This document shows positions 16,330-20,344 of a stretch of DNA of 64,000 nucleotides, in pieces; position 1 is the first letter of the stretch, and the number at the start of each line of letters is the position of its first letter. The stretch is taken from the NCBI GenBank assembly GCA_019359155.1, contig JAHHHV010000064.1, positions 62,001 to 126,000 on the forward strand. Direction: 5' to 3'. A model generated the notes under the pieces. The model searched no databases. It was not told the DNA's origin and saw only the letters and a list, made by a program, of their open reading frames with translations. The stretch is from Pegethrix bostrychoides GSE-TBD4-15B. Its GTDB lineage: Bacteria > Cyanobacteriota > Cyanobacteriia > Elainellales > Elainellaceae. A program made the translations under genes and the position numbers.

Positions 16330-16698
16330 TTACTTTTGTTCGTGACTAGCGGCTAAAATCTGATGGAGAACGTCTTCTAAATTGGTGATCACGTCTTGAT
16401 TGCTGAACCGCACGACTCGATATCCAAACTGGTTGAGTTTTATTGTACGTGCCATATCATATTCTGTCTGCTGATCGTGAATCTCTCCATCCACTTCAAC
16501 AACCAATCGACATTTTGGGCAATAGAAATCCACAATAAACGCACCCACTGGATGCTGGCAGCGAAACCTCAATCCGCCGATCTGGCGGTTCTTGAGCGCT
16601 TGCCATAGCATCTGTTCAGCAGGTGTAAGATTCTGTCGAAGTCGTTGAGCAGCAGAAACAATATCAGAAGTAGTCCCCCGGATACGGTCAGGTTCCAT
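16330..16698 (-). CDS. DUF559 (endonuclease-like) protein
   Basis: 122 residues with the DUF559 pattern, a Vsr/restriction-endonuclease-like fold: LTPAEQMLWQALKNRQIGGLR is split by the recognition region, then FRCQHPVGAFIVDFYCPKCRLVVEVDGEIHD carries the presumed catalytic Asp and Glu, ending GYRVVRFSNQDVITNLEDVL. Cyanobacterial genomes hold many copies, often in mobile or repeat-rich areas. Here it sits between a gene remnant and an inverted repeat. Its biological role is not established. Confidence 0.88.
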   Translation of the reverse strand: MEPDRIRGTTSDIVSAAQRLRQNLTPAEQMLWQALKNRQIGGLRFRCQHPVGAFIVDFYCPKCRLVVEVDGEIHDQQTEYDMARTIKLNQFGYRVVRFSNQDVITNLEDVLHQILAASHEQK

Positions 16699-16759: not shown

Positions 16760-16839
16760 GCCCCCTAAATCCCCCAATTCTGGGGGACTTCCGAACCATT
16801 CCGGATTAAAGTCCCCCAGAATTGGGGGATTTAGGGGGC
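16760..16839. repeat. 31-bp perfect inverted repeat, MITE-like hairpin
   Basis: Arms 16760-16790 and 16809-16839 are exact reverse complements around an 18-bp centre (80 bp in all). They are built from GCCCCCTAAATCCCCCAATT and CTGGGGGACTT. Such C/G-tract elements recur in cyanobacterial genomes as non-coding repeats; this is from memory. It contains no gene and could also form an RNA hairpin ending transcripts of the flanking genes. Confidence 0.9.
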
Positions 16840-16906: not shown

Positions 16907-19900
16907 CTACCGAGTCCAGGGGGAAAGACAGATTACTCGAAAACCGCTGACATGGTTCTGGCTGTACGGAGTATTCCGAAAGCGGAGAGCAGAGTGGCAG
17001 TAGTCTGGGGCAGGGAACCAGGAACCGCCCCGCAGCAGCCTATATCGATCATCTCCGTCCTTGATCCAAGCGCTCCCGTCAGTTGGTGCTCCTTCATAAG
17101 ACGGATGCCAATGATCTAAGCACCACTCCCAAACATTGCCATGCATATCAAATAGACCAAAGGCATTTACTACGCCAAAACTACCAACCTCAGCAGTTTT
17201 GTTTAGATATTCTCCCTTCTCTCCATCCCCGCAGGTATAGTTACCATTGTAATTGGCAATCTCTGTAGAAAGCGTACCGCCAAAGTGAAACGGCGTTGTT
17301 GTGCCGCCCCGACAGGCATATTCCCACTCGGCTTCACTGGGAAGGCGATAGGTTTTACCCCTATGCTGAGACAATCGGGCACAAAACTCCATCGCGTCAT
17401 ACCAAGACACGGTTTCTACAGGTCGGTTGTCTCCTTTATGGCTGGCTGGATCAAGATTTAGCTCTCGCTCTACTTTGGGTAACGCCGCTACAAACCGCCA
17501 TTGTGCTTGGGTAATCGGATGTTGACTTATGGAGAAAGCTGATACTTTTACTTGATGCTGCGCTTCTACATCCAGACCTTCGGTATCCGGATAAGAACGC
17601 GCATACCAGTCTCTGCTTGCCTCATCAGCAGGAGAACCCATCAGAAATTCTCCAGCTGGAATATTCACCAAGTCCAGCGTCAGGTTCTCGGTTAGTGATT
17701 CTCTCCAAACTGGGATAGATTTGATAATCTGAGGAGGTTCCCCGTTTAGCTTGACTAGCAACATCGGTACAGTTTCACCGCTGGCAGCTCCAATCAAGCT
17801 CAAGGCTCTGGCTGCACCCTGACGGATCGACAAAGGCTGATCATCACTTTCCAGGAGTTGGAGCAGTTCAGGTTGCTTAGCTTTCATCACCCCCAGCGAT
17901 TCTGCTGCACTGCGTCGTAGCGCCAAATCTTCATCGGGGTTCATCAAGAGCGCCAGCAAATTATCAGCACCAATCCCCAGTTTTCCCAACGTTTGAACTG
18001 CTGCTTGTCTCGACTCCATCTCCTGATTGCGATTCTCCATCATCCCAATCAAGTTCCGCCCCGCTTCCCTAGCCGCCATGCCCCGCTTGCCCAATTTTTC
18101 AGCCGCCTCAATCCGAAACTCCAGCTCCGGAGCCGAAAGATCCGAAATCAGCAGGCGAATCCGGCGTTTCTCTTCATCTCGCCGCAATTCTTCAGGATCT
18201 AATCCAGCTCTGCGAGCGAGTTCTTCCGGTACTGCGTCAGGAATTCGCGCTTCCTTCTGATTCACCAGACAGCAATCCCGCACCGCCAGCAAAAATCCCT
18301 GAATCGCGGCAGGCGGATCATTGCTTTGCTGCAAAATTGGATCAATCGACTCCAAAAACCACAGCCAGAAGTCCTCTGAATCTGACGAATTCGTTTGGCT
18401 ACGACTGCGATCAATCAACCAGGTGGCAGCCAAATATTCAGCCAACGGATCCAGCACAATCTTGATCTTGTTGTCTAGGGTTTGCAGCAACAGCAGTCGG
18501 TTCTCTAGATAGTCCAAACTGGCCGCGCTAGCCTTATCTTGAACGGTTAAATCTGCGGCGGGCTGAGTCGCTCGTAGAGCCTGGATTACCCCTTCCCGCA
18601 ACGTCACAGTTGGACGATAGGTCTGCTTCAGGCATTCCCAGGCAATCACCAGCGCATCTTGCCGCACCTGTTGATAATCACGCCGATTCGCAGGTTCAAT
18701 TTGATCGTTGAGCTGCTTCAGATAGCTGAGCATCAAGTCCTGCACAGAAGCCGGAGGCAAGTCTCCAGATCCCTGCTGTTGCCGAATCATCTCTTCCGTA
18801 TAAAGTCGCGCCAGCAATACCGTAATGTTGCCTTGCCGAACCATCCGGCGCAGCCGATCGCAGGCAATCGCATATTCGTCATCTACAAACGGATCATCCT
18901 GTTTGTTTAGCTTCCAGCGTACATAGGCTTGCATAAACCCCAACAGCCGATCCGCTTCAATCCGCTGCGGTCGCAGGATTGTTTTGGGCACTCCGCCCAA
19001 GGACTCTTCCAAGCGAGAAGTAATCACCAAGGCTTTGGCTGGAAACGTCGCCAACTCTGGCGTCACTTGCTTACGAGTTGCCTCACCCGTTTCCGAGAAA
19101 TGATCCACAATCACCAAAATGCGTTGGCGCTGCAAGAGTTTCTCCAGCAGATCAAGCGGCAGATCCTCCGGCTTACTGATCAAAGCATTCAGCTGTCCCC
19201 GAATCGCTTCCACCAGCGTCTTTTTGTCATCCAGTTCCGTCTCAACCAACACAGGCAATAGCCGATGCGAAGCCAGCTGTTTCTGCAAGCCCCACTGAGC
19301 AATCTGGCAAGCCAAACTGGTTTTCCCAGCTCCCCCCTCGCCCACAATCAGCAGCACCGCTGGATTCTTCTGAAAGGTGGCAACCAGATCGTCTCCGCTC
19401 AGCTCATTGATAAATCTCTTCTCCTGTCCCAACGTCACCGGCAGCGAAATATGAATCTGCCGATCCTTCACCGTGTCCAGCGCCAAGAAAGCCCGCTCCA
19501 CCTGTTGCCAATGCTGCTCCACCCAAGCATCCAGCACCCGAGGATGATACTTCAATGGCACCAGCACCTTCAGCGCTCCACTCACAGGCGTTCCCACTGT
19601 CGGAAGCTTGGAGATCGCCTCAATACCCCCATCTGTTAAGTTCAGCAGGCATAGTGGACGAAACCACCACACTGCGCCATAGACAAGCACTACCACAATC
19701 ACCCCAACAACAGTTACTACCAGCCAGGGATTGCTCTGACCCCAAGCCATCGGTTTGTAAACCCACTGATCGGTAATTAGCGCTAGCTGATTGCCCAGCC
19801 CATCGCGAGTTAACCCCAGAGAGATTAAATCTGCTTTTTTATTCGGCCAATCTTTGGCATCTTTCTCTAGTGCAGCCAGCGTCGCATCCAATTGCTGCTG

Positions 19901-20344
19901 ATAGGCTTCGATCGCTTGAATTTCCCCGACATCCCAGCCCCGCAACTGGTCAGCCTGATCTCGAATATCCTGACCAATCTTGCTAAGCGCCTGAACCGCA
20001 CTACTCCGGACTGCTAGATCATTATCTTTGGTTGCCCTGTCCTTGAGGGCTGTTGCTGCTGCTTTTGCATCTTGCCCCATTAGCCCCAATGCCTGAGCCG
20101 CATTACGCCGAATGGCTGTCTTGGGATTAGTCAGAGCAGAAACCAACGGCTGCACTGCTTCCTCACCACAGGTTTGCAGAGCCTTCTGGGCTTCTGGACG
20201 CTTTTGATTATCTTGAAGCTGTTCAACAGACTGCCGCAGAGCCTCAGGCACACAGGTTTGCCCAGAGCCAGCCATCGGTTGCAGCAGTGGTAAAGCCGTC
20301 AAAACTGTGACAGTCGTTAGCACAGACGGAACAGAGAGATGCAT
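16907..20344 (-). CDS. Membrane STAND-like NTPase with HEAT repeats and C-terminal FGE/C-type-lectin domain
   Basis: A 1145-residue multidomain protein. In order: signal-like N-terminus (1-30), HEAT repeats (about 55-125), a transmembrane helix (206-228), a NACHT/STAND-type NTPase with Walker A GEGGAGKTS (335-343), Walker B RILVIVDHF (408-416) and ALVITSR (438-444), an all-helical region, second HEAT repeats (about 735-870), and a SUMF1/FGE-type fold (about 900-1140) with NIPAGEFLMGS, YRLPSEAEWEYACRGG, MHGNVWEW and RLLRGGSW. The C-terminal 45 residues have the layout of diversity-generating-retroelement target proteins. The catalytic cysteine pair of true FGE is not preserved, so a binding role is likely. 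Function (conflict, sensing) is inference. Confidence 0.88.
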   Translation of the reverse strand: MHLSVPSVLTTVTVLTALPLLQPMAGSGQTCVPEALRQSVEQLQDNQKRPEAQKALQTCGEEAVQPLVSALTNPKTAIRRNAAQALGLMGQDAKAAATALKDRATKDNDLAVRSSAVQALSKIGQDIRDQADQLRGWDVGEIQAIEAYQQQLDATLAALEKDAKDWPNKKADLISLGLTRDGLGNQLALITDQWVYKPMAWGQSNPWLVVTVVGVIVVVLVYGAVWWFRPLCLLNLTDGGIEAISKLPTVGTPVSGALKVLVPLKYHPRVLDAWVEQHWQQVERAFLALDTVKDRQIHISLPVTLGQEKRFINELSGDDLVATFQKNPAVLLIVGEGGAGKTSLACQIAQWGLQKQLASHRLLPVLVETELDDKKTLVEAIRGQLNALISKPEDLPLDLLEKLLQRQRILVIVDHFSETGEATRKQVTPELATFPAKALVITSRLEESLGGVPKTILRPQRIEADRLLGFMQAYVRWKLNKQDDPFVDDEYAIACDRLRRMVRQGNITVLLARLYTEEMIRQQQGSGDLPPASVQDLMLSYLKQLNDQIEPANRRDYQQVRQDALVIAWECLKQTYRPTVTLREGVIQALRATQPAADLTVQDKASAASLDYLENRLLLLQTLDNKIKIVLDPLAEYLAATWLIDRSRSQTNSSDSEDFWLWFLESIDPILQQSNDPPAAIQGFLLAVRDCCLVNQKEARIPDAVPEELARRAGLDPEELRRDEEKRRIRLLISDLSAPELEFRIEAAEKLGKRGMAAREAGRNLIGMMENRNQEMESRQAAVQTLGKLGIGADNLLALLMNPDEDLALRRSAAESLGVMKAKQPELLQLLESDDQPLSIRQGAARALSLIGAASGETVPMLLVKLNGEPPQIIKSIPVWRESLTENLTLDLVNIPAGEFLMGSPADEASRDWYARSYPDTEGLDVEAQHQVKVSAFSISQHPITQAQWRFVAALPKVERELNLDPASHKGDNRPVETVSWYDAMEFCARLSQHRGKTYRLPSEAEWEYACRGGTTTPFHFGGTLSTEIANYNGNYTCGDGEKGEYLNKTAEVGSFGVVNAFGLFDMHGNVWEWCLDHWHPSYEGAPTDGSAWIKDGDDRYRLLRGGSWFPAPDYCHSALRFRNTPYSQNHVSGFRVICLSPWTR

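Follow-up and report, generated by a model that had tools for sequence, protein, structure and literature searches.

Remote variable proteins of diversity-generating retroelements (DGRs) have been described in cyanobacteria, where C-type-lectin (CLec) targets lie away from the reverse transcriptase (RT) and a few have a signal peptide or a transmembrane segment (Vallota-Eastman et al. 2020, PMC7517822). Transposases were found near such dispersed targets, and the word "NTPase" does not occur in the main text of that study (PMC7517822). In Thiohalocapsa PB-PSB1, degenerate and trans DGR loci were reported with NACHT plus CLec targets, some of which have a transmembrane segment (Dore et al. 2024, PMC10907252). 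The machinery of these loci is missing or broken, and their targets were proposed to be antigen sensors (PMC10907252). Here we analysed a stretch of 64,000 nucleotides from contig C64 of the cyanobacterium Pegethrix bostrychoides GSE-TBD4-15B, which is called the window. It contains a gene that very probably encodes a membrane NACHT receptor with a DGR-diversified lectin domain, orphaned from its retroelement and probably frozen in its specificity.

The domains of the encoded protein follow each other in the order signal-like head, HEAT repeats, transmembrane helix, NACHT, NCH4, HEAT repeats and FGE-type CLec domain (Table 1). The sequence-only reading of this DNA had described the same succession around one membrane helix and a P-loop NTPase, and the exact open reading frame, the Pfam matches and the hydropathy scan agreed with it. 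The C-terminal ending it had given was also present in the protein, which reads RLLRGGSW...CHSALRFRN...GFRVICLSPWTR. The NACHT P-loop NTPase, the NCH4 helical domain and the FGE/CLec C-terminus as the sensor are features of a STAND/NACHT receptor. This architecture did not arise by chance, because the orthologs of G303 and G312 align near full length at 56% and that of G027 over residues 5-640 at 54%. The split of the HEAT repeats across the membrane helix, which had been called unusual, is real but is not an oddity of a single gene, since the scaffold is conserved in many cyanobacteria. The NACHT core was found in 41 of 388 searched genomes of the class. One large family has proteins of this signal-HEAT-TM-NACHT type that terminate with HEAT repeats and lack the FGE domain. 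Without the lectin domain, the scaffold occurs widely among cyanobacteria. No effector gene was seen next to the receptor gene. A small open reading frame with a DUF559-like sequence lies just downstream (window positions 16330-16698, minus strand). PADLOC gave weak matches only, and these were over the NTPase region (Avs2, E 9e-4).

Table 1. Features of the receptor locus (positions in the window)
Feature	Position	Strand	Basis
Variable-protein gene, 1145 aa, ATG start	16907..20344	-	ORF list and Pfam
Signal-peptide-like head, ~residues 1-29	20258..20344	-	Hydrophobic start, the weaker, signal-peptide-looking stretch in the Kyte-Doolittle scan; orthologs with similar heads
N-terminal HEAT repeats, residues 35-121	19982..20242	-	Pfam HEAT_2, best stretch; a second stretch lies further on
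Membrane helix, ~residues 206-229	19658..19729	-	Hydropathy scan (Kyte-Doolittle), single strong hydrophobic stretch
NACHT P-loop NTPase, residues 330-425, Walker A GEGGAGKTS	19070..19357	-	Pfam, 27.4 bits, marginally above the cut-off of 26.7
NCH4, NACHT C-terminal helical domain, residues 674-717	18194..18325	-	Pfam, 74.5 bits
C-terminal HEAT repeats, ~residues 735-855	17780..18142	-	Pfam; approximate boundaries, read from sequence
FGE-type C-type-lectin domain, residues 891-1138	16931..17674	-	Pfam FGE-sulfatase, 171.6 bits; model
Variable repeat core, residues 1110-1133	16946..17017	-	Congener differences cluster at template-A sites; constant codons without synonymous change
IMH-like TGGACT, 3' end of the variable repeat	16913..16918	-	Templates have TGCACT in the same position
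Perfect 31-bp inverted repeat, 18-nt loop, MITE-like	16760..16839	none	Directly downstream of the receptor gene

A structure prediction had been suggested for residues 900-1145. The model of residues 870-1145 (pLDDT 93) showed a C-type-lectin fold, and the nearest solved folds were PvdO (Z 32.7) and TvpA (Z 31.2), with TaqVP (Z 14.2) and Mtd (Z 13) further away. TvpA (PDB 2y3c), the Treponema DGR variable protein, has the fold in common with the window protein (1.8 A over 226 residues) and also a C-terminal variable region. The identity across the aligned part is 31% and TvpA, in contrast to the window protein, is no NACHT receptor. The formylglycine-generating enzyme has two catalytic, copper-binding cysteines, C336 and C341 in the human protein. 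In the phmmer alignment the second catalytic cysteine was missing and S1118 was found at the aligned position. Because this cysteine is absent, a binding fold is a more probable reading of the lectin domain than a formylglycine-generating enzyme.

The variable repeat (VR) was compared with the ortholog of a species of the same genus (G001:C120), which is 74% identical, lacks the N-terminal part and has a transposase at the contig end. From residue 1108 to the stop (39 codons including the stop), differences at fourfold sites were 0/14 versus 153/288 elsewhere (p ~2e-5), and conserved codons were identical in 25/25 cases versus 358/597 elsewhere (p ~4e-6). Twelve codons differ within residues 1110-1132. 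When the differences were scored on a composite template, with the 5' half of the G031 template and the 3' half of contig C87 (both described below), they fell on 11 of the 26 template-A sites and on 5 of the 67 other sites (p 2e-4). The A-restricted variation that a comparison with relatives had been expected to reveal was therefore seen, here between two species. Eight codons had been listed as variable; AAT1124, TAC1127, AGC1128, AAC1130 and CAT1131 do vary between the orthologs, whereas GAC1114, TAC1115 and CAG1129 are constant. Variable codons absent from that list are TTC1110, CCT1111, GCC1112, CTC1120, TTT1122 and GTC1132.

The low synonymous divergence of the tail might also stem from a gene conversion or transfer that took place recently between the two species, instead of DGR homing. 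Codons 1093-1105, just upstream of the VR, are also fairly alike, and the G001 assembly contains no C87-type template, so that the near-identity of these species in the constant codons depends on a donor unseen in G001. However, conversion would not place 11 of 16 differences on template adenines, and the sharp shift in synonymous divergence coincides with the VR. We regard a conversion or transfer as very unlikely.

Intact DGRs were found beside several orthologs. In G031, which belongs to the same family, the variable protein, Avd (NF033474), RT and template lie in cis, and the VR differs from the template at 12/24 A and 0/69 non-A positions. Intact cis DGRs are also present in G373 (mismatches at 10/28 A and 0/80 non-A) and in G278 (18/29 A and 1/79 non-A), and in G312 an Avd gene adjoins the ortholog at the contig end. 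At the window gene, the inverted repeat occupies the place of the Avd-RT-template segment in the relatives. In the single-contig genome G030 the receptor gene is split by a transposase-like gene and no DGR is adjacent. Its VR is A-diversified, with 14/24 A and 2/69 other positions differing from the G031 template. In the whole of this genome no template copy was found, and the only RT match has a frame of 791 aa, whereas DGR RTs are short. In G303 the receptor is present, and no RT or Avd was found in the fetched stretch. The orthologs came from whole-genome searches; a scan of the contigs was swamped by FGE-domain relatives, the best matches covering hardly more than the FGE domain.

In a tree of the NACHT cores, mid-point rooted so that the root does not fix the direction of change, the window gene grouped with G001 (100/99) within an eight-member set (100/96), three of whose members have a DGR in cis. 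The orphans are interspersed in the tree, showing that there was more than one loss (or capture) of the DGR. Two additional loci were noted in congeners. A second DGR of G001 (L062, G001:C241:19000-35000) has a template of its own, NNNPQNCRSADRNNNSRDNRNNNIGFRVCC, and three C-termini that bear a VR. In another congener (L102:5335-5615, G003:C88), a piece matching residues 247-313 is directly followed by a VR-like tail and is apparently a remnant of the receptor gene.

The sequence-only reading had placed the template repeat and the RT elsewhere in the genome. Two RTs were found, on contigs C56 and C44. The C56 enzyme was rejected as a DGR RT, since its QGGVISP motif and maturase-like length, as read from the sequence, point to a group II intron. 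The C44 RT has the DGR motif IGNLTSQ, adjoins an Avd (NF033474, PF22296) and is 69% identical to the RT of G031. It is part of the sole DGR RT/Avd pair found in the genome, with its own template and two local targets. These targets differ from the C44 template at 16-17 of the 30 A positions and at 1 of the 93 other bases, which is the IMH base (AGCACT in the template, AGGACT in the targets). The locus (L003:3894-14136, G000:C44, where G000 is the genome of the window) is an apparently intact DGR with Avd, RT, template and two FGE targets, and CHAT, MoxR-type AAA and vWA/CoxE genes lie upstream. The window gene was rejected as a target of the C44 template, as the mismatches were 18/30 at A and 32/93 at non-A positions. 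Further FGE-type C-termini with VR-like sequence occur at L008 (G000:C64:195762-196478), L010 (G000:C2:52750-53460) and L014:124-279 (G000:C78), the last being a 51-aa fragment only. Those on C2 and C78 disagree with the C44 template (non-A mismatches 33/93 and 25/93, respectively), and the one on C64, which is one codon longer and unscored, has no apparent match to it. All three are possible further orphan targets.

The search with the C44 template also picked up C87:15287-15329. This relic reads AAC CGC AAT CGG AAT ACA CCG CAC AAC CAG AAC AAT AAC AGC GG, and the aligned VR of the window gene reads CTC CGC TTT CGG AAT ACT CCG TAC AGC CAG AAC CAT GTC AGC GG. Over 45 bases, which cover the 3' half of the template only, the mismatches were 9/19 at A and 2/26 at non-A positions; taken alone, this test on a short VR is modest (p 0.003). 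C87 retains 17/17 A's of the overlapping G031 template and differs at 14/49 of the other bases, showing that it is a template and not a VR. It has TGCACT where the window VR has TGGACT, and the G031 pair shows the identical C/G contrast, corresponding to IMH* and IMH by sequence. The non-A changes of the window VR, two in the 3' core and more nearer the 3' end, show that the relic does not correspond exactly to its present template. The 5' half has no copy in the genome within 3 mismatches, and C87 is intact only in the 3' half and the downstream RNA. With tblastn, no convincing RT or Avd remnants were detected adjoining C87 or the window gene. A template-like copy and a DGR RT thus exist elsewhere in the genome, as had been anticipated, but the copy is a 3' half without an RT and the RT on C44 has a different template.

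The region downstream of the C87 repeat can be aligned to the corresponding 3' parts of DGR RNAs from intact loci. A consensus fold of six sequences had 44 pairs, 20 of them with at least one compensatory change. The single-sequence folds were unremarkable (z ~ -1) with the exception of C92 (-2.6), and the covariation is visible only in the alignment. The scores to Rfam RT-14 (RF02921) were all below the gathering score of 48.1 bits, with 33.4 for C87 (E 0.02 for the genome) and 45.6 for C92, and this also applied to the RNAs of intact copies (G031 36.8, G001 C248 35.9). The C92 region (L083:547-688, G000:C92:547-688, plus strand) is a third DGR-RNA 3' region, with no template repeat visible ahead of it, and is another DGR relic of this genome.

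If the window protein were an ordinary member of the FGE family whose loop residues evolve fast and which never had a retroelement, its RGGSW...GFR ending would be explained, as this is common to the family, and the genome also has FGE paralogs without a matching template. The clustering of the changes at template-A positions with zero synonymous change around them, and the intact cis-DGRs of the orthologs with matching templates, stand against this, and with a template relic in the same genome all template matches would need to be coincidence. We consider such an origin extremely improbable. The reading of the gene as a DGR target is supported by the A-restricted divergence, the cis DGRs of the relatives and the C87 relic.

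Diversification could still be ongoing in trans, with the RT/Avd of C44 using either the C87 RNA or a complete template that the assembly lacks, and changing the 3' half of the VR or more of it. The genome does contain a DGR-motif RT with Avd, the RT being 69% identical to that of G031; C87 has lost none of the template A's of its 3' half and has the conserved fold downstream; the window VR has an undamaged IMH-like TGGACT, and its constant codons are without synonymous divergence from the congener. However, the 5' half of C87 is lost with no other near copy, and the window VR differs from C87 at several non-A sites, whereas the C44 targets fit their own template at all non-A sites but the IMH base. 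Ongoing diversification in trans is unlikely, and we give rather little credence to a three-locus DGR in which C87 is a free-standing template RNA, used in trans by the C44 RT/Avd to rewrite the 3' half of the VR only. Since the C87 template is half lost and the C44 RT has another template and other targets, the window gene is an orphaned DGR target. It is a target by descent, for which complete present activity is unlikely.

We propose that the FGE-type lectin domain is the ligand-binding part of a membrane-anchored STAND (NACHT) receptor. In the DGR, the template RNA would be reverse-transcribed with random bases at the template adenines and retrohomed into the gene's final ~120 bp. The target would have been split from the retroelement in this lineage, with the receptor on C64, the 3'-half template and the RT-14-like RNA on C87 and the RT/Avd on C44. 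A mobile-DNA rearrangement could plausibly have separated the two, and an inverted repeat adjoins the gene. The DGR is presumably inactive at the window gene today, and the receptor probably retained one fixed binding specificity. The signal-peptide-like head suggests that the N-terminal HEAT repeats are periplasmic and the NACHT and lectin domains cytoplasmic, so the sensed ligand would be intracellular. In STAND receptors, ligand binding releases the oligomerisation of the NTPase (NACHT). By analogy, binding of a ligand to the lectin domain may lead to NACHT oligomerisation, and the oligomer might cause an anti-phage or cell-death output, e.g. membrane damage, via the membrane or N-terminal part. 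From its domain content, the receptor may have a role in defence.

The orthologs of this one receptor show stages of DGR loss, from the cis arrangement (G031, G373 and G278) to only a decayed template elsewhere in the genome (the window gene) and to none (G030). These stages make it testable what becomes of a hypervariable immune-type receptor without its mutator, whether its specificity persists as a fixed repertoire, and whether the remaining RT of a genome can serve orphan templates. The gene further shows a lectin domain varied by a DGR at the end of a membrane NACHT scaffold that is conserved in cyanobacteria and elsewhere terminates with HEAT repeats.

Published precedents exist both for remote cyanobacterial DGR targets (PMC7517822) and for NACHT-CLec targets at degenerate or trans loci (PMC10907252). 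The remote targets of the former study were assigned to a DGR by >50% template identity, whereas the matching template of the window gene is a separate decayed relic. The ternary conflict systems with a DGR (Kaur et al. 2020, PMC7159879) are similar to the C44 DGR, which lies amid CHAT, MoxR-type AAA and vWA genes and FGE targets; the window gene, unlike the C44 DGR, has no such partners adjoining. With Thiohalocapsa PB-PSB1 (PMC10907252) the window gene shares the NACHT-CLec type of target, the transmembrane segment and the incomplete machinery. It differs in its HEAT-TM-NACHT-NCH4-HEAT scaffold, in its cyanobacterial host and in that the stages are seen across the orthologs of one gene. New here is a well-resolved case in which the intact, half-lost and fully lost stages occur among the orthologs of one receptor.
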